Source of the DNA: a virus
Length of the DNA: 57,363 nt
Strand: one strand, 5' to 3'
IMG/VR virus record: IMGVR_UViG_3300020420_000002
Span: 1-57,363 of that record
Shown: piece by piece, positions 19,312 through 56,220 of the stretch
Layout of the letters: each line of letters opens with the position of its first letter
How positions within the stretch are numbered: position 1 is the first letter of the stretch
Made by a program: the position numbers and the translations under genes
Notes under the pieces: generated by a model
What the model was told of the DNA's origin: nothing
The model's input: only the letters and a program-made list of their open reading frames with translations
The model's database searches: none

Positions 19312-19683
19312 ATGGGAAATTTATCAAAAGGAAAATACGCATTATTTATTTCAGACCGATCGGGTTTAGCTTTTCCATATCGTGAAATGGTTAGAGAATG
19401 GAATGGTGCAAGAGTTCACACGTCAGAGTATGAACCCAAACAACCACAATTAGAACCAACACCTTATTCAGCAGATCCGCAAGGACTTCCGCATCCAAGA
19501 CCACAACAATTTAATTTATTGACCGGAGGAGGCGGAGGAATTATTGCCAATTTAACTTTGCCTGGAGATTTTGGATTTCAAACCATTACTGATAATAGCA
19601 TGACACCTGCAAATCCAAATACAGTCAATAATGCGAGACAAGCGTTAATGCAAATAGGGAGTGTAACAATTAATATATCATGA
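19312..19683 (+). CDS. Neck-region structural protein, 123 aa
   Basis: A 123-residue protein with a Lys/Arg start, a Pro-rich middle (LEPTPYSADPQGLPHPRPQQ) and a Gly-Gly-Gly-Gly-Ile-Ile turn. It recurs in marine podoviruses between the gp4-like and adaptor genes. The biochemical role is unknown. Its stop overlaps the next start by four bases. Confidence 0.65.
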   Translation: MGNLSKGKYALFISDRSGLAFPYREMVREWNGARVHTSEYEPKQPQLEPTPYSADPQGLPHPRPQQFNLLTGGGGGIIANLTLPGDFGFQTITDNSMTPANPNTVNNARQALMQIGSVTINIS

Positions 19684-22203: not shown

Positions 22204-22905
22204 ATGGCGAATTCAACATCAGCAAGTTTAAAACTTACAGTACAAGCGACCGGTGAAAATTCGGGAACTTGGGGACAAATCACAAATACAAACTTATTAA
22301 TTTTAGAACAGGCAATTGGTGGTTATGATACTTTTAACGTAACTAATGCTAATAGAGCTCTGACTTTTACAAATGGGGCTTTATCTAATGGTAAAAATGA
22401 AGTTATAAAATTAACAGGCACATTAGCTTCTAATTTAAATGTCACTATTCCAGACTCAATAGAAAAAGTATACACAGTAATTGATGGATGTGATCACGCA
22501 AATAATACTTTAACTTTTAAAACATCTTCAGGTACAGGTGTTCTTTTATGTGAAGGCAACTGTTACACTTTATATTCTGACGGAACTAATGTTGTAAAAG
22601 CAAATGAATACAGAAAATGGAGAGCGGTTTCAGCAGCAGAAACAGTTCAAGCTGGAGCTAAACTTTTGGTAAATACAAGTGGTGGAGGAGTAACAATTAC
22701 GCTACCTGCATCACCGGCAACAGGTGACGAGGTTTCTTTTGTTGACCAAGGTTATGACTTTAATTCTAACGCATTGACTGTTGGTAGAAATTCTTCTAAT
22801 ATAGCTAATGCAGCATCTGATCTTGTAGTTAATACGCAAGGTGCAGCTTTTTCATTAGTTTTTTCTGGAGACGCTACAACAGGATGGACTTACACGGAGA
22901 AATAA
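22204..22905 (+). CDS. Tail-fibre protein, 233 aa
   Basis: A 233-residue protein. An N-terminal Ser-Thr-Ser-Ala-Ser-Leu-Lys-Leu-x-Val segment with a Gly-Glu-Asn-Ser-Gly-Thr-Trp motif is common in fibre proteins of marine podo- and myophages. Beta-rich repeats and two Cys residues (CDHANN, CEGNC) follow. It lies after the cupredoxin fibre and before a collar-domain fibre. The C-terminal Gly-Trp-Thr-Tyr-Thr segment resembles receptor-binding tips. Its exact role in adsorption is not known. Confidence 0.7.
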   Translation: MANSTSASLKLTVQATGENSGTWGQITNTNLLILEQAIGGYDTFNVTNANRALTFTNGALSNGKNEVIKLTGTLASNLNVTIPDSIEKVYTVIDGCDHANNTLTFKTSSGTGVLLCEGNCYTLYSDGTNVVKANEYRKWRAVSAAETVQAGAKLLVNTSGGGVTITLPASPATGDEVSFVDQGYDFNSNALTVGRNSSNIANAASDLVVNTQGAAFSLVFSGDATTGWTYTEK

Positions 22906-22906
22906 T

Positions 22907-23476
22907 ATGTCAAATTACGAAGCAACAAAATACGATTTCGATGGAGCAAATCTTACTGGTATCGAGGGAATTCCTACAGCAACTATTGTGCCGTGGTCTT
23001 CTTCTTCAGTGCCAACAGGTTTTTTAGAGTGTAATGGTCAAGCAGTTTCAAGATCAACTTACTCTGCATTATTTGCAATTGTAAGTACAACTTACGGATC
23101 TGGAGATGGTGCATCAACTTTTAACGTACCTGATTTACAAGACAACGTCGCAATGGGTAAATCTGGAACTAAAGCTTTAGCATCAACTGGCGGAGCAAAC
23201 ACTGTTACTTCTACAGGTAATGTAGGTGGAACGACTGCCAATGCAACTTTGTCAACTGCACAACTTGCATCACACAGTCACCCTGGAGGTGGATCAACTG
23301 GCGGTACTTACTTTAACCAATCTTTTCCTGGATCTAAAGCATTTTTTAGTCCATCAGGGACTGGTAGTACAGGTTCTGGTACTGGTCACTCTCATAATAT
23401 GAGTGCAACTTTTAGTGGTGATGCAACATCAGTTCTTCAACCTTATTTAACAATAATTTATATTATTAAGACATAG
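22907..23476 (+). CDS. Tail collar-domain fibre protein
   Basis: A 189-residue protein with the phage tail collar domain (Pfam Tail_Collar type): PTGFLECNGQAVSRSTYSAL, FNVPDLQDNVAMG and two His-Ser-His clusters (HSH near residue 123, HSH near 162) that in related fibres bind metal ions along the shaft. The C-terminus ends with LQPYLTIIYIIKT, a pattern often seen in such tips. It begins one base after the preceding fibre stop. Adsorption to host surface polysaccharide is likely. Confidence 0.85.
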   Translation: MSNYEATKYDFDGANLTGIEGIPTATIVPWSSSSVPTGFLECNGQAVSRSTYSALFAIVSTTYGSGDGASTFNVPDLQDNVAMGKSGTKALASTGGANTVTSTGNVGGTTANATLSTAQLASHSHPGGGSTGGTYFNQSFPGSKAFFSPSGTGSTGSGTGHSHNMSATFSGDATSVLQPYLTIIYIIKT

Positions 23477-23484
23477 GAGAAATT

Positions 23485-23901
23485 ATGGCGACAAGCGCAA
23501 AATGGACAATAATATTTGAAGATAAAAAAATAATTAAAAATTATGATGAAGGTGCTTCAGAAGGCATTCCATATAATATATCTGACGATTCTTTTTGGAG
23601 TCAATCTAAATTTTCAAACATTTGGGCTGTTCAATATGGAACAGCTAATCCAACTGACACGGTAGAATATAGAGACGAAACCCCTCACTCCACTTGGGAA
23701 GATGCAAACTTAGGTGATATTTTAGACTTTACCACTAAATGGGACTCTTTGCATTTAGCATCTTTACAAAAACAGTGGGATGATGATGTCATAGAAGTCT
23801 GGTCAGGTGAAGGAACAGATGCTGTGTTAGAATCTACAGAAAGTGAAGCGGATCAAATTGCTAGAAAAGGTCCAAGACCTACCTCTTATTCTTCCTCTTA
23901 A
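23485..23901 (+). CDS. Tail-fibre-region protein, 138 aa
   Basis: A 138-residue acidic protein with Trp-rich segments. Similar proteins follow the collar-domain fibre in marine phages and often act as small fibre caps or chaperones. Nothing catalytic is visible. Its 3' end overlaps the 3' end of the first minus-strand oxygenase by four bases, so transcription converges here with no clear terminator. Confidence 0.65.
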   Translation: MATSAKWTIIFEDKKIIKNYDEGASEGIPYNISDDSFWSQSKFSNIWAVQYGTANPTDTVEYRDETPHSTWEDANLGDILDFTTKWDSLHLASLQKQWDDDVIEVWSGEGTDAVLESTESEADQIARKGPRPTSYSSS

Positions 23902-24470
23902 CAATTTAACCAACCTGTCATAATATATTTTTCTCCTTCAAGAGGAGGGTTACCTCTGTGCACATAAGGGTAACCAGCAGGCCAAAAAACAATTCTACCA
24001 CTTTTTGGTTTTACTCTTACTGATTGATGTAAAAATTCAGTTTCCCCACCTTCATCAACATCATTTAAATATATTGTATAAACTATTACTCGGTTTGCAT
24101 GATCTCTAGGTTCTCCATGTTCTATATGCCAAGTATGATAACCTTGTCCTGGAAGAGTTAGTTGTATTTTCAGGGGAACAATTTTAAAAGAACTATAAAA
24201 ATTTTTTAAACCTGTGTTATCTACATACCTTCTTAAAGCCAAATCAAAATTTGCAAACAGTTCTTTAAAATCATCTACCCAAGTGTCCACGGTTACTGAA
24301 GTATCGTTCTTTTCAAGAAGAGATACTTTCTCTGTTTGAAACCTTTGATATGCTTCTCCAAACGCAGCTTTTTTCTTAAAATACTCAATAACTTTATTGC
24401 AATTTGTCTTGGAGATATAATTATCAAAAATTCCTATGTGATTTTGCATGGATATCGTTTTTTCACTCAT
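23898..24470 (-). CDS. 2OG-Fe(II) oxygenase 1, prolyl-4-hydroxylase-like
   Basis: A 190-residue dioxygenase. The double-stranded beta-helix core has metal ligands His115-x-Glu117 (WHIEHGE) and His171 (YVHRG), with Lys181 in GEKYIMTGWL placed to bind 2-oxoglutarate. The lysine there and the GGETEF strand resemble prolyl 4-hydroxylases. Substituting Glu for the usual Asp in HxD is uncommon but found in active family members. It would hydroxylate an unknown substrate using O2, Fe(II) and 2OG. It is the last gene of a five-gene minus-strand operon, with a one-base overlap to the upstream gene. Confidence 0.8.
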   Translation of the reverse strand: MSEKTISMQNHIGIFDNYISKTNCNKVIEYFKKKAAFGEAYQRFQTEKVSLLEKNDTSVTVDTWVDDFKELFANFDLALRRYVDNTGLKNFYSSFKIVPLKIQLTLPGQGYHTWHIEHGEPRDHANRVIVYTIYLNDVDEGGETEFLHQSVRVKPKSGRIVFWPAGYPYVHRGNPPLEGEKYIMTGWLNC

Positions 24471-24991
24471 TAATATTCCTTACTTTTATTATCATAAGCG
24501 TAATTTTTATACGGTCCGTATTTATTTACATAATGAAAAAAAACTTGTGCTATTCCATTACCTTTATAAACTCCCGGTCTTCCATGTTGTTGGTCACAAC
24601 CTGCATATAGTAGACCATCTCCTTCTTGTAATTCAAAAACGTTATTCTCTATTATAAAAGGCCAATCGTCATATTTTTTTATACATGCACTGATTGAAAT
24701 TTCACAAGATGGTCTATCCAAATGTGTTTTTAATGTTGCTCCAAAAACATAATATCTCCAGTAAGCATATGTTGGAAGTAATTCTAATTCTGTTTCTTTT
24801 TGAATTAAATTTAATTTTAAATCTAAGAACGAAGTCATTAAAGAATCTTTGTACCATGCAGGTGAAAAAGATTGGGCATCTAATTGATATTCTTTATTAG
24901 AGTCTAATTTATTATAACAATAAGGTTGTAATATATTTAATTCTTCCTGTGAAAAAAAGTTTTTTAAGATTTTAAAATTTACTGGAGCCAT
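24470..24991 (-). CDS. 2OG-Fe(II) oxygenase 2
   Basis: A 173-residue dioxygenase-like protein: His90-x-Asp92 in LKTHLDRPSC and His136 in QQHGRPG provide the iron triad. Arg138 or a following residue may hold 2OG, but the usual Arg two strands later is not clear. The core GDGLLYAGCDQQHGR is typical of a distal His turn. The protein is short, with few extra helices, suggesting a narrow substrate pocket. It overlaps both neighbours in the operon (13 bases with the upstream gene). Confidence 0.75.
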   Translation of the reverse strand: MAPVNFKILKNFFSQEELNILQPYCYNKLDSNKEYQLDAQSFSPAWYKDSLMTSFLDLKLNLIQKETELELLPTYAYWRYYVFGATLKTHLDRPSCEISISACIKKYDDWPFIIENNVFELQEGDGLLYAGCDQQHGRPGVYKGNGIAQVFFHYVNKYGPYKNYAYDNKSKEY

Positions 24992-25527
24992 GACACTATA
25001 CTATATCGAACTCCTTTTGTTATCGGTTCTATGCAATGTGGATACATAAAATTACTTGGAAAAAAAACTATAGATCCTTTTCCAAGTTTCATTCTTTTTA
25101 CTTCTTTTTGTTGCTGATTAGTAAATACAAGATCACCACCCTCATATCCTTCATTCAAATTTATTATTACACTTAAATTTCTGACACTAGTGGTGAAGTG
25201 ATCAGTATGAACTTCATACTTACCCCCGACTGAATATTTTAATAAATCTATTTGGTTTATTTTGTTACTTTCCATCATTGGAAATTTAGCTTTGTAAAAA
25301 CTGTACAGTCTAGTTATTTCCTGTTTTACATAGTTCCAGTAAAACAAATTGGTGGGGCTGGTAAAATCTAATTGATAACCTTTTACATTTCTTGTTTCAG
25401 TATTCAATTTATCTTCTCCGATTAATAAATTTTTTGTAGCTCTTTTTTTAATTAAAGAAATAATTCTATTATTAAAATCATTTTCTATTACATTTTTGAT
25501 TTCAACAATTGCTTCTAAATAATTCAT
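24979..25527 (-). CDS. 2OG-Fe(II) oxygenase 3
   Basis: A 182-residue dioxygenase with a full canonical motif set: His107-Thr-Asp109 in YEVHTDHF, His164 in YPHCIEP, and Arg174 in KGVRYSIVSW for 2OG. The GYEGGDLVF strand lies between, and GSIVFFPSN precedes the distal His. This is close to the prolyl-hydroxylase-like group widespread in marine phages. The best-defined motifs of the cassette make this the most likely active member. It starts at ATG 25527, just after the stop of the upstream gene (25528). Confidence 0.85.
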   Translation of the reverse strand: MNYLEAIVEIKNVIENDFNNRIISLIKKRATKNLLIGEDKLNTETRNVKGYQLDFTSPTNLFYWNYVKQEITRLYSFYKAKFPMMESNKINQIDLLKYSVGGKYEVHTDHFTTSVRNLSVIINLNEGYEGGDLVFTNQQQKEVKRMKLGKGSIVFFPSNFMYPHCIEPITKGVRYSIVSWLQ

Positions 25528-26142
25528 TTATATTAATACAAAATTACTGTTCTCGACGAGTTGTAAGGTTAAATCAAAAGCTACAGTAATTCGTCTTGAG
25601 GATGTAACATCAGTGTAATGTTCAATCCACGATGGAAATATTGTTATTCTACCAGGTTTGTTTTCTGATTTAAACGCTGTATCGTCAAAAGGATTTACGT
25701 AATAAGTACCAGTTTTATTTATTTCCACACAAAGATGTCCGCTTAGAAAAGAAGTATTTTCTACCGTATGTCTATGTCTTTTTATTTGTTCTTCTTCCCT
25801 CATTACATTGGCCCAACATTTACCGTAAATTTTTTTAGGCATTGGTATTTTTAATTCTTTAAAAAATAATTTTAAATTTTCTTTGATGTTGTCTTTTAAA
25901 AAAATAGTCTCATCTGAATCAAATAAATTAAACGACATATGTCGACTAGTGAGACTTTTTTTACCTAGCCCAGTTCGACCGTCTCCCTCTGATGTTGTAT
26001 TTTTTATAATGTCTTTTTCTATATTTAAAATATGATTTTTTAATTTTTTTATGTCTATATCAGACATGTTTTCATACATAAAATATTTATAAAAAGGACT
26101 AAAAAAATTAGTAGGAGCCAAACTTTCAAACACGTGTATCAT
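25528..26142 (-). CDS. 2OG-Fe(II) oxygenase 4, TIGR02466-like
   Basis: A 204-residue protein of the divergent 2OG-Fe(II) oxygenase group seen in marine phages and bacteria. HRH (His123, His125) precedes FLSGHLCVEI, then TGTYYVNPFDD. GRITIFPSWIEH carries the distal His175, and Arg183-Arg184 precede the last strand. In this group an HxH replaces HxD. The first 100 residues are a helical domain with a basic face. It overlaps the upstream oxygenase by 17 bases. Confidence 0.75.
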   Translation of the reverse strand: MIHVFESLAPTNFFSPFYKYFMYENMSDIDIKKLKNHILNIEKDIIKNTTSEGDGRTGLGKKSLTSRHMSFNLFDSDETIFLKDNIKENLKLFFKELKIPMPKKIYGKCWANVMREEEQIKRHRHTVENTSFLSGHLCVEINKTGTYYVNPFDDTAFKSENKPGRITIFPSWIEHYTDVTSSRRITVAFDLTLQLVENSNFVLI

Positions 26143-26683
26143 CAGCGTGTCCTATTATTATATTACAAGTTACCCTTTGCCAACTATGAGTTTCTGACTC
26201 AACCGATTCACCTGTATGAAATTCTTGTGAATCTAGTATCACTGCATTTCCCGGTTTAAATTTAAATTCTTCTCCGTCTACAAAAAATGAACCTCTCCAA
26301 TCTGGTTGCCAAAGAGGAGTCATAAATAATAAAATTGTTTTTGAATGAGATGTGACCATATCATCTTGATGTAACCAGTGTTGAGTTTTTTTACCGTGGT
26401 ATGTTGCATTAAACCACATTCTTTTTAATTCTGTCGGTATACCTATTTTTTTGTCCTCTAATATTTTTGCTATTCTATAAACCAAAGTTTGGCCCCAAAG
26501 ACATAACGGATAATTGTTAACATAACCATTATTGTCTTTGACTATTAAAGCTGGCCCAGACATAAAACCCTCATGTGGTCCCGATGCGCAGTTCATTACC
26601 CAGTTATGACTACCCGTGATTTGTTTATACATATAAAACAATTCTTTTTGAGAAAGCACCTGATCTAGCATTATTGTTTTCAT
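26126..26683 (-). CDS. 2OG-Fe(II) oxygenase 5
   Basis: A 185-residue protein from the ATG at 26683; an in-frame start 28 codons earlier lacks a ribosome binding site and would overlap the divergent gene. The motifs are His105-Gln-Asp107 (HWLHQDD), His156 (QEFHTG) and Arg170 (WQRVTCNIII), the typical Fe(II) triad and 2OG Arg. GSFFVDGEEFKFKPGNAVIL is the distal strand. It is the first gene of the five-gene minus-strand cassette; its start is only 43 bp from the divergent gene at 26727, so the operon promoter must lie in or near that gene's 5' end. Confidence 0.8.
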   Translation of the reverse strand: MKTIMLDQVLSQKELFYMYKQITGSHNWVMNCASGPHEGFMSGPALIVKDNNGYVNNYPLCLWGQTLVYRIAKILEDKKIGIPTELKRMWFNATYHGKKTQHWLHQDDMVTSHSKTILLFMTPLWQPDWRGSFFVDGEEFKFKPGNAVILDSQEFHTGESVESETHSWQRVTCNIIIGHADDTRV

Positions 26684-26726
26684 TTTGTATCTTTCATTAA
26701 TTATTAAACTGCTATATAACATATTT

Positions 26727-28643
26727 ATGGCCTTAAAAAAAGTAGATTTTGCAGCTGGATTCAACAAACAAGGTGTTCCTTCAGCCCTTCCTGGAAAATG
26801 GGTGGATGGAGATTTTGTGCGTTTTAGATATACAGCACCTGAAAAAATAGGAGGTTGGTCCCAACTTACAGCTTCATCAAAAACATTACCCGGAGCAGCT
26901 AGAGCTCAAGTAGCTTTTACTAGTTTAAAAGGTGAAAAATATGCAGCTATCGGAACTTCTCAAGGTTTGTTTTTGTATTACGGAAACGATTTTTATGATA
27001 TCTCTCCTTTGGATACAGCTATTTCGGGATGCACTTTAACCACTGTCAATGGTTCCAATGTAATAACCATAGATAAATCATCTCATAATTTAAAAGTAGG
27101 AAGATATATTACTTTATCTGGAGTTACAGTAACAGGTGCTTCTGATTATACGCCCACTGAATTACAAGTGGCTTATGAAATACTAACCGTTCCAACAGTA
27201 GATAAATTTACTATACAAGCTGTAAGGAACGAAGGTGGTTCGGGAATGACGGCTGCTGGAGCTGCAACTGTTAATCCTTACGTTGAGGTTGGACCTACTA
27301 TACAAACAACAGGTTATGGTTGGAGTACATCGACTTGGGGAGCATCTACTTGGGGAACGGAAAGATCTACAAGTTCTGTGGTATTAGATCCAGGAAATTG
27401 GAGTCTTGATAATTTTGGTGAAGTGTTAGTAGCCACAGTATTTAATGGTGAAACTTTTACGTGGAATGCAGGAGCTACAAACGCTCGAACAACAAGAGCA
27501 TCTAAATCAACTTCTGGTTTTTCTACTTCGGCTAACCCAACTGCAAGCAGATTTACGTTAGTGTCTGATAGAGACAGACATTTATTTCATTTTGGAACTG
27601 AAACAACTATCGGAGACTCGACCACTCAAGACCCGATGTTTGTAAGATTTTCAAACCAAGAAGATTTAAATACTTACACCCCAACAGCTACCAACACGGC
27701 TGGAACTTTTAGACTTGACACAGGAAATAAAATTACTTCAGCTATTCAAGGGAAAGACTATGTTTTTGTTTTAACGGATCAAGCTGCTTACGTTATTCAG
27801 TTTGTTGGTCCGCCATTTACATTTAGTGTTAGACAGGTAGGTACAAACTGTGGATGTTTAGCACAACACTCCGCCTCTTATGTAAATGGTGCTATCTATT
27901 GGATGTCTAATGAAGGTGGATTTTTTATGTATGATGGTACAGTAAAAGCTTTACCTTGTTTGGTGGAAGATTTTGTTTTTACAACACAGAATGGAAATCT
28001 TGGATTAAATTTTAATGCATCAGATGTAATTTTTTCCTCACCAAATAGTTTATTTACAGAAGTAAATTGGTTTTATCCTAAATCTGGTTCTGATCAAATT
28101 GATAGGTGTGTAACTTATAATTTTCAAGAAAATGCTTGGACTACTTCATCATTAGATAGAACAACTTATCAAGATCAAGGAGTATTTAATAAACCTTATG
28201 CAACAGACTATGAATCAACAACCTCTCCCGTATTTTCAGATATTTTAGGAATTACAAACAAATACGGCGCTAGTATTTATTATGCTCACGAAGTGGGTAA
28301 TGATCAGGTTAATAGCACCGGGACAACTTCTATAAATGCTTTTATTAGATCTGGGGATTTTGATATAGATGATGGTGAATTTTTTATGTCTATGAAAAGA
28401 TTTATGCCAGACTATAAATTTTTAATTGGTAATTCTAAGGTAACATTATTTATATCTGATTTTCCTTCAGACACACAAGCAAGCTCGTCTTTAGGACCCT
28501 TTACAATAACAAAGACCACTGATAAAGTAGACACGAGAGCAAGAGCTAGACTGCTATCTATTAAAATAGAATGTGACGCTGTAGGAGAAACTTGGCGTTA
28601 TGGTAGTTTTAGACTTGATGCTCAACCAGACGGAAGGAGATAG
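26727..28643 (+). CDS. Tail/DNA-stabilisation structural protein
   Basis: A 638-residue protein from ATG 26727. The N-terminal 60 residues (KKVDFAAGFNKQGVPSALPG, DGDFVRFRY, EKIGGW) match the opening of large podovirus structural proteins related to P22 gp10-like packaged-DNA stabilisation factors. The rest has repeated beta segments with Trp/Gly turns consistent with a beta-propeller. It would plug or extend the tail after packaging. The plus-strand structural block resumes here after the oxygenase cassette. Confidence 0.7.
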   Translation: MALKKVDFAAGFNKQGVPSALPGKWVDGDFVRFRYTAPEKIGGWSQLTASSKTLPGAARAQVAFTSLKGEKYAAIGTSQGLFLYYGNDFYDISPLDTAISGCTLTTVNGSNVITIDKSSHNLKVGRYITLSGVTVTGASDYTPTELQVAYEILTVPTVDKFTIQAVRNEGGSGMTAAGAATVNPYVEVGPTIQTTGYGWSTSTWGASTWGTERSTSSVVLDPGNWSLDNFGEVLVATVFNGETFTWNAGATNARTTRASKSTSGFSTSANPTASRFTLVSDRDRHLFHFGTETTIGDSTTQDPMFVRFSNQEDLNTYTPTATNTAGTFRLDTGNKITSAIQGKDYVFVLTDQAAYVIQFVGPPFTFSVRQVGTNCGCLAQHSASYVNGAIYWMSNEGGFFMYDGTVKALPCLVEDFVFTTQNGNLGLNFNASDVIFSSPNSLFTEVNWFYPKSGSDQIDRCVTYNFQENAWTTSSLDRTTYQDQGVFNKPYATDYESTTSPVFSDILGITNKYGASIYYAHEVGNDQVNSTGTTSINAFIRSGDFDIDDGEFFMSMKRFMPDYKFLIGNSKVTLFISDFPSDTQASSSLGPFTITKTTDKVDTRARARLLSIKIECDAVGETWRYGSFRLDAQPDGRR

Positions 28644-29281: not shown

Positions 29282-29459
29282 CATACATAAAATAGACTGT
29301 ACCACTACAACAGTTTATAGAAATACAAAGACAGGCGAAACGTCTAAAGAAAAAATAGAAGGACCAGATATTGTAACGGATGTTACAGTTGAAATTTCTC
29401 CAAAAGGTTTAGATGTGTTTCAGAAAGTAATGAATGAAAACAAGAAACCAAAACCCTAA
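29268..29459 (+). CDS. Small hypothetical protein, 63 aa
   Basis: A 63-residue protein with a Cys-Thr-Thr-Thr strand and a basic end. It overlaps the preceding gene by 14 bases and the glycosyltransferase by 26. The function is unknown. Its position between virion and glycosyltransferase genes does not decide which group it serves. Confidence 0.55.
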   Translation: MKTDNIHKIDCTTTTVYRNTKTGETSKEKIEGPDIVTDVTVEISPKGLDVFQKVMNENKKPKP

Positions 29460-30381
29460 AGGGGGAACCGAGTTACAGCTTGGTTTTTTAAACAAATACG
29501 TAGATAAAAAATTATTAGATCAAGTACAAATATGCACTAGTGTGCCTGGTAAAGTACCTATAGACCCTAATAAGCTTAACATACTCTGGCAAAAAAATTC
29601 TTACGACCAACCTAATCTTTATGGTTGGTTCAAGGACCGAGGAAATCACAAACAATATGATTGGTATGTTTTTAACTCTCATTGGAACTATGAAAAATTT
29701 AGAATGATGTTTGGTATTCCTACAGAAAAATGCATTGTAATTAAAAACGGAATAGAAAAAATAGAACAATCAAAGCATTACAGAAAAGGTGACCCAGTAA
29801 AAATTATTCATCAAAACACCCCTTGGCGTGGTTTATCTGTATTGTTAGGTGCGATGCAGTTGGTTAAAAATCCTTTAATTAGTTTAGATGTTTATTCTTC
29901 TTGTGAAGTTTATGGAAAAGATTTTATGGATAAAAATGACAGTAACTATAGAGCTCTTTATGATCAAGCCGAACAACTTCCTAATGTAAATTACATTGGT
30001 TACAGACCTAATGAATATATTAGAGAACACATTAAAGATTATAACATGTATGTCTATCCTAGTATTTTTGAAGAAACTTCTTGTATATCTTTACTTGAAG
30101 CAATGGCTGGAGGACTTTATTGTATTACTACTAATTATGGAGCTCTATTTGAAACAGGGGCCGAGTTTCCCATGTATATTCCGTACGACAATAATTATAA
30201 AGCTTTAGCAGAAAAATTTGCCTATGGAATTTCTGCTGCTGTTGAAACTTTACATGAACCTCAAATTCATAGTCATTTAACAACTCAATCTAATTACGCG
30301 CAAATATATTATTCTTGGCCTAAACAGGCGTCGGTGTGGACTAGATTTTTACAAGGAGCACTTAATGCAAAAAGCAAATGA
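29434..30381 (+). CDS. GT-B glycosyltransferase, family 4-like
   Basis: A 315-residue glycosyltransferase with the GT-B fold. The N-terminal Rossmann domain begins at GGTELQLGFL; the C-terminal domain holds PVKIIHQNTPWRGL and the donor-site Glu-x7-Glu in EETSCISLLEAMAGG. It transfers a nucleotide-sugar glycose, cytoplasmically. Next to a GT-A enzyme, it may modify virion proteins, host surface polysaccharide or phage DNA bases; the target is unknown. The gene overlaps both neighbours (26 and 17 bases), so the two transferases are co-translated. Confidence 0.8.
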   Translation: MKTRNQNPKGGTELQLGFLNKYVDKKLLDQVQICTSVPGKVPIDPNKLNILWQKNSYDQPNLYGWFKDRGNHKQYDWYVFNSHWNYEKFRMMFGIPTEKCIVIKNGIEKIEQSKHYRKGDPVKIIHQNTPWRGLSVLLGAMQLVKNPLISLDVYSSCEVYGKDFMDKNDSNYRALYDQAEQLPNVNYIGYRPNEYIREHIKDYNMYVYPSIFEETSCISLLEAMAGGLYCITTNYGALFETGAEFPMYIPYDNNYKALAEKFAYGISAAVETLHEPQIHSHLTTQSNYAQIYYSWPKQASVWTRFLQGALNAKSK

Positions 30382-31294
30382 ACCCATATGGTTTAATGTA
30401 GATAAAGAAGAAGCACCTAATAACGATACGTATCAAACAATTAAAACTAATAAAGTAGAAGATAAAGTAACTGAAATAAATGTGGGGGTTTCTCCTTACA
30501 AAGTCATGGTGTGTACACCGTGTCATAGCGATGTAAGCATGCACTATTGTCAAGCAGTTTTAAAGTTTCAACAGGCTTGTTGGAAAAAAGGAATTTTATG
30601 TAGTTTTACTTTATTAAAATCATCATTAGTCACACAAGGTAGAAATTTATGTGTAGCAGAATTTTTAAACCATGAAGATAAATATACTCATTTATTATTT
30701 ATAGATTCGGACATTGATTTTAGAGCTAAAACTATTTTTAAAATGTTAGACTTTGATAAAGACATAATTAGTGTTCCATATCCAATGAAGACGATGAGTT
30801 GGGATAAGATATGGAGAAGATTAGATACTAAAGAAGGTGCAATTAATAACGCAGACGAGTTAGCTAGATCTGGTTTTACTTTTCCAGTTAAAGTAAAAGA
30901 TCCTGATTCTATTACAGTAGAGAAAGGATTAGCTGAACTTACTCATGCTCCCACAGGATGCATGTTAATAAAAAGAAATGTTATTGAAAAAATGATTGAA
31001 GCTTATCCTCATTTAGAAATATACCAGCCAACAAATATTAATGGTAAAGAAGAAAAGAAAGATAACATGTATAATTTATTTGACACTTTACATGATACTA
31101 AGTCTAAGCGTTATTTTGGAGAGGACTTTGGTTTTTGTCAAAGATGGGCTGATATAGGGGGCAAAGTATATGGTTATATAGATGACCCTATTAGTCACGT
31201 TGGAGAGTATTGTTACACTGGTCGATTTAGAGATGATTTGTGGCAGGCGACAAGGCCTGTCAAATCTGTTGACGACACTACAAAAATCAAATAA
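30365..31294 (+). CDS. GT-A-like glycosyltransferase
   Basis: A 309-residue protein. From residue 45 it has a GT-A nucleotide-sugar fold: KVMVCTPCHSD (first strand), a Gln-Gly-Arg-Asn turn, LLFIDSDIDF with the metal-binding Asp-x-Asp near residue 113, and GEDFGFCQRW plus a late His (DDPISHVGE). This matches Anp1-type or family 2-like transferases. The first 45 residues are charged and specific to this phage. It overlaps the GT4 gene by 17 bases; both likely act on one glycan. Confidence 0.75.
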   Translation: MQKANEPIWFNVDKEEAPNNDTYQTIKTNKVEDKVTEINVGVSPYKVMVCTPCHSDVSMHYCQAVLKFQQACWKKGILCSFTLLKSSLVTQGRNLCVAEFLNHEDKYTHLLFIDSDIDFRAKTIFKMLDFDKDIISVPYPMKTMSWDKIWRRLDTKEGAINNADELARSGFTFPVKVKDPDSITVEKGLAELTHAPTGCMLIKRNVIEKMIEAYPHLEIYQPTNINGKEEKKDNMYNLFDTLHDTKSKRYFGEDFGFCQRWADIGGKVYGYIDDPISHVGEYCYTGRFRDDLWQATRPVKSVDDTTKIK

Positions 31295-53066: not shown

Positions 53067-53520
53067 CCTTCAGGAATTAATTAAAAGCGATACGGCCGTT
53101 CGTATGGATATTGATAACAATCCTAATGCAGATCAAATAGAAAAATTAAAAGCATTGTGTGAAAATATTTTGCAGCCAGTACGTGATCATTTCGGCAGAG
53201 TTAAAGTGACAAGCTGCTATCGTAGTGTAGCATTGTGTCAAGCCATAAATAGTTCTGTCAACAGCCAACATGCAAAAGCGGAGGCGGCAGACTTCGAAGT
53301 GGTGGGCACAGACAACGCAGAATTAGCGGATTGGATATATAAAAATCTTGAACCAGATCAGCTTATACTCGAGTTCTACAAACCCGGAGAACCCAACTCG
53401 GGATGGATACATTGCTCCTGGATACCTGAAGGCAGGCGCGCGCAGTTCTTGCATGCTTTTAAACAAGATGGTAAAACAAAGTATAAACCTGTAATAGGAA
53501 AAGCAACAGATATAGTATGA
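53044..53520 (+). CDS. Endolysin, peptidase M15-type
   Basis: A 158-residue peptidase of the M15 (D-Ala-D-Ala carboxypeptidase/L-Ala-D-Glu endopeptidase) family. Zinc ligands are His76-x6-Asp83 (SQHAKAEAADFE) and His123 (GWIHCSW), with TSCYRS and a nearby Glu as the catalytic base. It cuts peptidoglycan stem peptides during lysis. No signal peptide, so a holin is needed for release. It follows membrane and coiled-coil proteins, which together form the lysis module. The stop overlaps the next ATG by four bases. Confidence 0.85.
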   Translation: MNLSRNFSLQELIKSDTAVRMDIDNNPNADQIEKLKALCENILQPVRDHFGRVKVTSCYRSVALCQAINSSVNSQHAKAEAADFEVVGTDNAELADWIYKNLEPDQLILEFYKPGEPNSGWIHCSWIPEGRRAQFLHAFKQDGKTKYKPVIGKATDIV

Positions 53521-54119
53521 CAGAAGCAAGAAGAATAGATTACCGATTTTTACATTGGGGTCCATATGTATGTCAGTTTAAATTAATTCCGGAAGAAGTT
53601 GAAGAATTTAAATCATTAGAAAAAGAAGAAGATTATAGAGATAATTTAGCCGGCCACTTAGAAGATGAAAAAACTTTAGATAAAAATAAAGTTTTTAAAT
53701 TACTAACTCCATATTTAAATAGCTATTTCAAGGGATATTATGATTTTCGAGGCAAACCTTTAGCAAAGAGTTATGAATTAATCTCAGCTTGGATAAATAC
53801 TCAAAAAGAGGGTGAATTTAATCCACCACATACACATGATGGTGATTTATCTTTTGTGGTTTACACAGAGGTTCCTAAAAATTTAATTAAAGAGTCCACT
53901 GATAATGTTTCTCTAAGCCCTGGACCTGGTTGCATAACTTTTGATTTTAACTTGGCTGGAACTAGAATGCACAAATTTTTTTTACAAACACATTCACATT
54001 TACCTGAAGTGGGTGATGTATTTATTTTCCCCGCAGGTTTACCTCACTGGGTATATCCTTATACTAAAACAGAGGGACAAAGAGTTTCAATATCAGGCAA
54101 TTTAAAATTAATAGAATGA
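53517..54119 (+). CDS. 2OG-Fe(II) oxygenase 6, TIGR02466-like
   Basis: A 200-residue protein with His105-Thr-His107-Asp108 (FNPPHTHDGDLSFVVY), distal His177 (FPAGLPHWVYP) and Arg189 (GQRVSISGN), the pattern of the marine-phage 2OG oxygenase group that also includes the product of 25528-26142. An acidic loop precedes the core. It is separate from the five-gene cassette and co-translated with the endolysin (ATGA overlap). The substrate is unknown. Its end overlaps the zinc-ribbon gene by four bases. Confidence 0.8.
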   Translation: MTEARRIDYRFLHWGPYVCQFKLIPEEVEEFKSLEKEEDYRDNLAGHLEDEKTLDKNKVFKLLTPYLNSYFKGYYDFRGKPLAKSYELISAWINTQKEGEFNPPHTHDGDLSFVVYTEVPKNLIKESTDNVSLSPGPGCITFDFNLAGTRMHKFFLQTHSHLPEVGDVFIFPAGLPHWVYPYTKTEGQRVSISGNLKLIE

Positions 54120-55356: not shown

Positions 55357-55565
55357 TGAGTGACACAGACATAAAGAACCACCACAAGCTAGTGAAAGAT
55401 CTAGAAAATAAAAAACCAAAGGGCCCCGCTGAGGATCGGGGCCCACTAGATTTAACTAAACGTATTGAAGTATTAGAATTTAGAAACGAAAAATTACATA
55501 AGTATAACGAGAAACTAACTGAAGAAGTTAGAACATTAAGGAGAAAATTAGATGATAAAGGGTGA
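55353..55565 (+). CDS. Small coiled-coil protein, 70 aa
   Basis: A 70-residue protein with a C-terminal coiled coil (EVLEFRNEKLHKYNEKL, heptads of Leu and Arg/Glu). The middle is encoded by a perfect 8-bp palindrome GGGCCCCG/CGGGGCCC at 55421-55444, whose GC content differs sharply from the surroundings. Overlaps its neighbours by four and 14 bases. Function unknown. Confidence 0.6.
   Translation: MMSDTDIKNHHKLVKDLENKKPKGPAEDRGPLDLTKRIEVLEFRNEKLHKYNEKLTEEVRTLRRKLDDKG
55421..55444. repeat. GC-rich hairpin inside the 55353 gene
   Basis: GGGCCCCG and CGGGGCCC are separated by an 8-nt loop, inside codons for Lys-Gly-Pro-Ala-Glu-Asp-Arg-Gly-Pro. It is a strong stem in an AT-rich mRNA and may slow translation or mark an RNA cut site. 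Confidence 0.7.
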
Positions 55566-56220
55566 TAGCGGAGACTATAATTTATTAGCCAAGTGGGTTG
55601 GAGAAATGAATCCAAAAGATTTTTATTTAACATTAGAGATAGGAGTGAGAGAAGGTTATGGATCTCATGTTATTATGGACACATTAAAAAAATTAAATAG
55701 AGATCATTTTCATATAGGCATGGATCCTTATGGAGATATCACATACACACACGTTGACCCCAAGCCAGGTTTTGTTCCTACGTGGACAGATTTTGAAGGC
55801 AACGTACTATACAATGAAGATGGAAGTTATAAGACTCCAACGTATCCTAACTCTATGAAACAAACTTTCTTGAGTGCTTTTAAACATCACGAAAATTTTA
55901 TGTTGTATCAATTAGATGATTATGAATTCTTTAATTCTTTTGGTCATGGTGTTCCTGTGTATCGTCAAGGCCAAAAAGTATTTATGACTAAATATGATTT
56001 CGTACACTTTGATGGGCCCCATACAACGAAAGCTGTTTTAAGTGAGGCTTTATTTTTTGCGGTTAGATCTAACCCAGGTGCTAGATTTGTATTCGATGAT
56101 GTAGATACTTATAACATGAAACTAATTCAAGAAGCTTTGTCTTACTATGACTTCTATTTAATAGGCAGCGGCGAAAGAAAAAAATGTTTAGAAAAAGCTA
56201 TCGGACATAAAAAACAGTGA
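55552..56220 (+). CDS. Class I methyltransferase-like protein, 222 aa
   Basis: A 222-residue protein with a class I SAM-dependent methyltransferase-like layout: motif I TLEIGVREGYGS (residues 27-38), then HIGMDPYGD after the second strand. A mid-domain DFVHFDGPHT follows, and ARFVFDDVDTYN. This arrangement resembles the Methyltransf_24/cephalosporin hydroxylase-like group often linked to glycan or small-molecule modification. The acceptor is unknown. It overlaps the preceding gene by 14 bases; the next gene's ATG shares one base with its TGA stop. Confidence 0.7.
   Translation: MIKGDSGDYNLLAKWVGEMNPKDFYLTLEIGVREGYGSHVIMDTLKKLNRDHFHIGMDPYGDITYTHVDPKPGFVPTWTDFEGNVLYNEDGSYKTPTYPNSMKQTFLSAFKHHENFMLYQLDDYEFFNSFGHGVPVYRQGQKVFMTKYDFVHFDGPHTTKAVLSEALFFAVRSNPGARFVFDDVDTYNMKLIQEALSYYDFYLIGSGERKKCLEKAIGHKKQ

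Follow-up and report, generated by a model that had tools for sequence, protein, structure and literature searches.

The locus

The stretch of DNA analysed here (the window) is the virus record IMGVR_UViG_3300020420_000002 at its full length of 57,363 bases, bounded by a direct terminal repeat of 77 bases, and our subject is a cassette of five 2-oxoglutarate (2OG)-Fe(II) oxygenase genes, O1 to O5, at positions 23898-26683. The phage is a pelagiphage of the HTVC023P type, its virion block being homologous to and syntenic with those of HTVC027P and HTVC023P, the closest isolates by that block (74 and 53% identity, respectively, for the 'stab' protein). It is one of the viruses of the ocean's most abundant bacteria. 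The virion genes run on the plus strand through capsid, tail proteins, tail collar and the small gene chapT, and then through stab, glycosyltransferase-like genes and large structural proteins. This run is split by the five minus-strand genes, which overlap or abut one another, its last gene before them ending at 23901 and its next starting at 26727. An earlier note on this DNA, made from the letters alone, had described five different minus-strand oxygenase genes interrupting a plus-strand virion run, a description borne out by the open reading frames, by Pfam and by AlphaFold models. The features of the locus are as follows:

22204-22905, plus strand: tail protein adjoining the island
22907-23476, plus strand: tail collar domain protein (PF07484)
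23485-23901, plus strand: chapT, small tail-block gene and left border of the island, convergent with O1 (4 bp overlap)
23898-24470, minus strand: O1, 190 amino acids (aa), 2OG-Fe(II) oxygenase of prolyl-4-hydroxylase type, PF13640
24470-24991, minus strand: O2, 173 aa, predicted 2OG-Fe(II) oxygenase fold, family phrog_2954, annotated 'ferrochelatase'
24979-25527, minus strand: O3, 182 aa, 2OG-Fe(II) oxygenase, PF13640, 13 bp overlap with O2
25528-26142, minus strand: O4, 204 aa, PF13759 (2OG-FeII_Oxy_5 type)
26126-26683, minus strand: O5, 185 aa, predicted 2OG-Fe(II) oxygenase fold, start set at the ATG at 26683
26684-26726: divergent intergenic gap of 43 bp between the island and stab
26727-28643, plus strand: stab, virion structural protein (phrog_3287) and right border of the island

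Within the island G+C drops to 0.28-0.31, as compared with about 0.33-0.42 on both sides, and at the divergent gap nothing stronger than a weak sigma70-like match was seen (26697-26670, minus strand).

Fold, active-site residues and kinship of the enzymes

Three of the proteins matched Pfam models directly (O1 and O3 PF13640, at 1.4e-13 and 1.6e-17; O4 PF13759, at 8.5e-10), and no Pfam model matched O2 or O5. The structures of these two were predicted with AlphaFold, using relatives from viral contigs, with pLDDT (predicted local distance difference test) values of 92.7 for O2 and 83.7 for O5. Both models gave full-length structural matches to 2OG-Fe(II) oxygenases: O2 to SnoN, PHD2 and prolyl-4-hydroxylase (P4H) with a VIA Z of about 15-16, and O5 to SnoN, a Burkholderia oxygenase, AlkB and P4H with a Z of about 14-15. 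All five genes thus carry the double-stranded beta-helix fold of this superfamily, O1, O3 and O4 by Pfam and O2 and O5 by their models.

The iron-triad forms listed in the earlier note (HxE, HxD, HTD, HRH and HQD) are those we find. Family alignments give H115-I-E117, H171 and K181 for O1, H107-T-D109, H164 and R174 for O3, and H105-Q-D107, H156 and R170 for O5, the last residue of each set being the putative 2OG-binding Lys or Arg after the distal His. O2 has H90-L-D92 and H136, a triad conserved in 111/111 sequences, and no clear equivalent of the 2OG-binding residue, for which the invariant Q149 and K105/K106 are candidates. In O1, O2, O3 and O5 the first ligand and the distal His of the HxD/E...H triad are invariant or nearly so. 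O4 has a triad without a carboxylate (H123-R-H125 and H175, followed by R184). The H-x-H...H pattern is found in 76/76 sequences of its PF13759 group, which includes O4, 69 members of the island gene cluster C0 and a sixth oxygenase of the window, with the Arg present in most, and membership of PF13759 holds by profile score. The pattern was seen to be invariant in loci L079 and L099 as well as in other C0 members. The group possibly has a three-His iron site, and its oxygenase activity is uncertain.

The earlier note held that the five share nothing except fold and triad. This is true of most pairs, with no significant similarity detected, but O1 and O3, which belong to the same Pfam family, are 35% identical over 66 aa (E 3e-8). 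Since that is the only detectable similarity, a recent tandem duplication of the five genes is ruled out, as the note had said. O1 alone shows clear sequence kinship to characterised enzymes, namely prolyl-4-hydroxylases such as the Bacillus P4H (5e-9) and the viral P4H of PBCV-1 (1.5e-5), with which it aligns over nearly its whole length and shares the P4H-type Lys, although its triad has H-x-E. For O3 the closest enzymes are hydroxylases of the PKHD type (PiuC) and prolyl 3-hydroxylase.

These comparisons bear on two possible targets. The first is nucleic acid: enzymes of the TET/JBP or AlkB kind would modify or repair it and so shield the phage DNA. O5 is structurally about equally near AlkB and P4H, and genes for thymidine hypermodification are known from other clades of the phage group (PMC9599517). 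However, no Tet_JBP or AlkB model was among the Pfam hits of O1-O5 (a genome search with PF12851 was weak and had no positive control), no thymidylate synthase was found in the window, and the published DNA-modification genes lie near PolA, outside the island; we regard this explanation as very unlikely. The second is host proteins such as EF-Tu or ribosomal proteins, whose hydroxylation would redirect translation. An EF-Tu-bound bacterial P4H (4iw3) is among the structural matches of both O2 and O5, but such structures are matched by every enzyme with this fold, the gene neighbourhood gives no pointer to translation, and the fast turnover of the island described below fits conserved host targets poorly, so that this too seems improbable.

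The 'ferrochelatase' gene and its partner

PHROGs, like many cyanophage and pelagiphage records, annotates the O2 family as ferrochelatase, and oxygenase-ferrochelatase partners were reported in a 2022 study of this phage group (PMC9599517). The ferrochelatase model PF00762 had no match in six phage genomes, among whose O2 relatives are annotated ferrochelatases, whereas it matched 8 of the 14 control genomes. This lack of a match, together with the predicted fold, rules out a ferrochelatase identity for O2; going by the structural model, the label is wrong and O2 is an oxygenase.

O3 lies immediately upstream of O2 in 104/112 distinct cases, 102 of them with an identical 13-bp overlap, and the two families are fused in Synechococcus phage ACG-2014f. 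They probably form a functional pair. The 29 loci with cellular O2 homologues showed no consistent neighbourhood, apart from the O3-type gene that several of them have. The tail-collar genes in these neighbourhoods all come from one contig in a Maricaulis bin, and are not independent evidence because that contig is phage-like. It is in itself a fragment of an HTVC023P-type phage binned as bacterial (NZMJ01000150.1, from a Maricaulis metagenome-assembled genome), carrying O3, O2, O1, chapT, three collar genes and tail genes. We also note that O2- and O3-type genes adjoin on a 275-kb SAR11 single-cell contig of Pelagibacterales SAG-MED28 (L311:5998-7193), as either a host gene or an integrated phage.

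A general effect on 2OG and iron metabolism, through 2OG draw-down or iron carriage, has been proposed for cyanophages (PMC3037559), and host iron uptake genes go up during HTVC027P infection (PMC12753301). For the cassette we consider such an effect highly improbable: the active sites are conserved yet diverse and the genes are replaced by unrelated tailoring enzymes (see below), which points to specific products, and the gene once taken for a ferrochelatase partner is, by its predicted fold, an oxygenase too.

A variable island at a conserved site

Relatives were gathered with O2, O5, stab and chapT as queries and their genes called by family profiles. Although the O2 and O5 queries bias the set of loci, those anchored on stab, fetched without regard to oxygenases, give the same picture. 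Between chapT/collar and stab we found 132 distinct complete islands of 1-9 genes each, in 90 different gene orders, with all genes antisense to the virion run in 122. Oxygenase-type genes account for 512 of the 567 island genes (mean 3.9 per island), and O1 is present in 130/132 islands. Adjacent island genes overlap or sit at most 20 bp apart in 416/435 pairs; they are arranged as an operon. Among the cultured relatives, HTVC027P carries three of the genes and HTVC023P four.

The remaining occupants, by Pfam, include carbamoyltransferases (17 genes in 13 loci), sulfotransferase-like proteins, TylF-type and other methyltransferases, a tryptophan-halogenase homologue and cupin/JmjC-like proteins. 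Examples of such homologues, given as locus and position, are:

L023:3720-5246: carbamoyltransferase
L059:2380-3489: tryptophan halogenase
L109:2524-3165: sulfotransferase
L207:2129-2797: TylF-type methyltransferase

The median ratio of non-synonymous to synonymous substitution rates of the island enzymes is 0.12-0.26, as compared with 0.12-0.28 for the flanking tail and stab genes, so the enzymes are under purifying selection and are maintained despite the turnover. The earlier note would have been undermined had the genes proved broken or absent in close relatives; they are intact there, and the related phages show an island that is variable in content and not unique to this phage. The divergences of collar, tail233 and stab are correlated pairwise (rank r 0.54-0.86) whereas island content shows no correlation with core virion gene divergence, and we conclude that island content changes faster than the lineage. 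The cassette is the current state of a hypervariable, exchangeable island at a conserved site between the tail-collar genes and a divergently transcribed virion gene. Since genes are freely gained and lost, a fixed stepwise pathway acting on one substrate, as first envisaged, is unlikely; only O3-O2 is stably linked.

The border gene chapT has a variable body and a C-terminal RPTSYS kept in 150/161 relatives. Because synonymous sites vary, this end is conserved as protein, and a role of the chapT 3' end as a DNA recombination anchor is ruled out. O1 occurs in 130/132 islands as compared with 3/28 loci of a subclade without chapT, which is suggestive of a functional link between O1 and chapT, although the pattern is confounded by ancestry and three O1 copies do occur without chapT.

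Placement elsewhere

In that divergent subclade, on the HTVC023P/023Pt_psg01 side, where chapT is absent, the oxygenase genes are co-directional with, and embedded among, the tail genes (73/73 detected genes, 24/28 loci). Across 11 large records, 31 oxygenase genes were detected, 27 of them in the 6 kb upstream of stab as compared with about three expected by area, clustered genes not being independent. Two further sites were also observed. One, a minor site near endolysin and replication genes, is occupied by O3-O2 in loci L007-L009 and L058, and probably in G003; in the window it holds the sixth oxygenase, which the earlier note, with its count of five, had missed. The other lies between g113 and GT1, where some loci have O5-like genes.

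53517-54119, plus strand: sixth oxygenase (phrog_81, PF13759), directly after the endolysin gene

A methyltransferase (PF13578) at 55552-56220 on the plus strand, near the right genome end, is conserved at the second oxygenase site of relatives. Downstream of stab, two adjoining glycosyltransferase-like genes lie within the virion block on the plus strand (29434-31294) and are common in relatives; one belongs to glycosyltransferase group 1, and the other (phrog_1574) has a weak Anp1 match only.

The same families recur in unrelated phages. The T4-like pelagiphage HTVC008M has, as gp068-gp072, genes of the O2, O1, C0, C0 and O3 families, opposite in strand to the baseplate and neck genes on either side; a tryptophan halogenase and one more gene of the C0 family lie close by. 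Mosig has six cassette-family genes (Mosig_00055-00060) between tail-fibre and neck genes. These two phages resemble the window in having an unbroken run of five or six genes (families O1, O2, O3 and C0, and also C4) in the virion block, but they belong to an unrelated lineage with other flanking genes, and the O5 family is missing in HTVC008M. In the cyanophage P-RSM4 the fibre genes are followed by a carbamoyltransferase of family C3, by O3- and O2-like genes and by other oxygenases, C0-family genes being present, while in some other cyanophages the genes are scattered, as are the single genes near gp23 and uvsY in Syn33. The earlier note's remark that single phage oxygenases are known thus understates the case, with up to five annotated 2OG-Fe(II) genes in cyanophages (PMC3037559) and a five-gene cassette in HTVC008M.

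Possible tailoring of tail proteins

We tentatively read the island as an exchangeable tailoring operon that hydroxylates one or more phage tail proteins, a reading to which we give a probability of about 45%. The cassette enzymes would hydroxylate side chains of tail or adsorption proteins during infection, O1 presumably acting, as its homology suggests, as a peptidyl-prolyl hydroxylase, and O3 and O2 working as a pair, in sequence or as two components. The carbamoyl-, sulfo- and methyltransferases and the halogenase present in some relatives may modify the new hydroxyls or residues nearby. The benefit would be that the surface chemistry of the virion could be shifted cheaply and by horizontal exchange, tuning adsorption or protecting the particle. 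The tail target, already favoured in the earlier note, gains from the tail-block position, which is kept on both strands and in unrelated phages, and a polypeptide substrate is favoured because the near-universal O1 is a P4H homologue.

Several observations weigh against this reading. The antisense orientation means that the enzymes are not co-transcribed with the tail genes in this clade. The tail proteins of the window contain no collagen-like run of more than four triplets and few proline-rich stretches; no convincing collagen-like or strongly proline-rich substrate was found in the window, the best candidate being the product of 19312-19683, with 8 Pro in 30 residues. Island content tracks no flanking gene clearly in Mantel tests, where the best partial r was 0.15 (collar given stab; p 0.048, uncorrected for several tests). 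The minority O3-O2 pairs and the sixth oxygenase, near lysis and replication genes, lie off the tail block, which also speaks against a one-substrate pathway. Finally, the shared position could reflect an insertion hotspot that tolerates cargo rather than a function.

Alternatively, the enzymes could act on a virion glycan or on the infected cell, tailoring its lipopolysaccharide, capsule or further sugars, for instance to keep rival phages out, the variable position then being a host-interaction cluster. We keep a glycan or host-surface target open because transferases of sugar or small-molecule type share the island (carbamoyltransferase; sulfotransferase, with the phrog label 'Galactose-3-O-sulfotransferase'; TylF-type O-methyltransferase; other methyltransferases). 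The glycosyltransferase-like pair lies downstream of stab, and pelagimyophage tail regions have been described as host-recognition clusters with glycosyltransferases (PMC7029224). However, the near-universal O1 is closest to peptidyl-prolyl hydroxylases, and the glycosyltransferases are dispensable, 13 loci having oxygenases without them and 7 the reverse, so that a pathway joining the two is not required. On balance a sugar target appears unlikely, though it is a serious contender.

A broader form of the tail-protein reading, which we find distinctly doubtful, is a modular system of chemical variation, in which marine phages would swap hydroxylases along with enzymes of secondary tailoring (carbamoyl, sulfo, methyl, halogen) and so vary the covalent chemistry of an adsorption protein, possibly chapT, with RPTSYS as a potential recognition tag or modification site.

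Relation to published systems and significance

That one phage can carry several oxygenases, and that these cluster in this group, is already published (PMC3037559, PMC9599517). Wittmers et al. (2022, PMC9599517) reported eight non-orthologous oxygenase families in HTVC023P-type pelagiphages, often near each other and near 'ferrochelatases'. Their paper describes the genes as not adjacent, whereas we find tight operons, a defined site and strand, and a 'ferrochelatase' predicted to be itself an oxygenase; its main text names none of the carbamoyl-, sulfo- or methyltransferase or halogenase co-occupants. The pelagimyophage host-recognition cluster (PMC7029224) is likewise a hypervariable island of the structural block with tail genes and modifying enzymes, but is much larger and was characterised by its glycosyltransferases, not as an oxygenase operon. 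Marine phage oxygenases structurally akin to prolyl hydroxylases have been reported (PMC12774648, 2026); no proven phage tail hydroxylase was found in the open-access literature, and the transcription timing of HTVC027P gp72-74 is absent from the main text of PMC12753301. We did not find described before an antisense tail-block island with combinatorial content and non-oxygenase tailoring enzymes, the predicted oxygenase identity of the 'ferrochelatase', the H-x-H subgroup, or the same set of families in the virion blocks of unrelated phages.

Correcting the 'ferrochelatase' annotation touches the published iron and haem interpretation that rests on that label. The site is defined, O3 and O2 make a stable pair, a P4H homologue is present in nearly all islands and relatives are in culture, all of which makes the question of the substrate directly testable. 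2OG-Fe(II) oxygenases are among the commonest accessory genes of marine phages, and the free swapping of enzymes at one site points to a variable chemical 'decorating kit', with the virus's own tail as its probable but unproven target.

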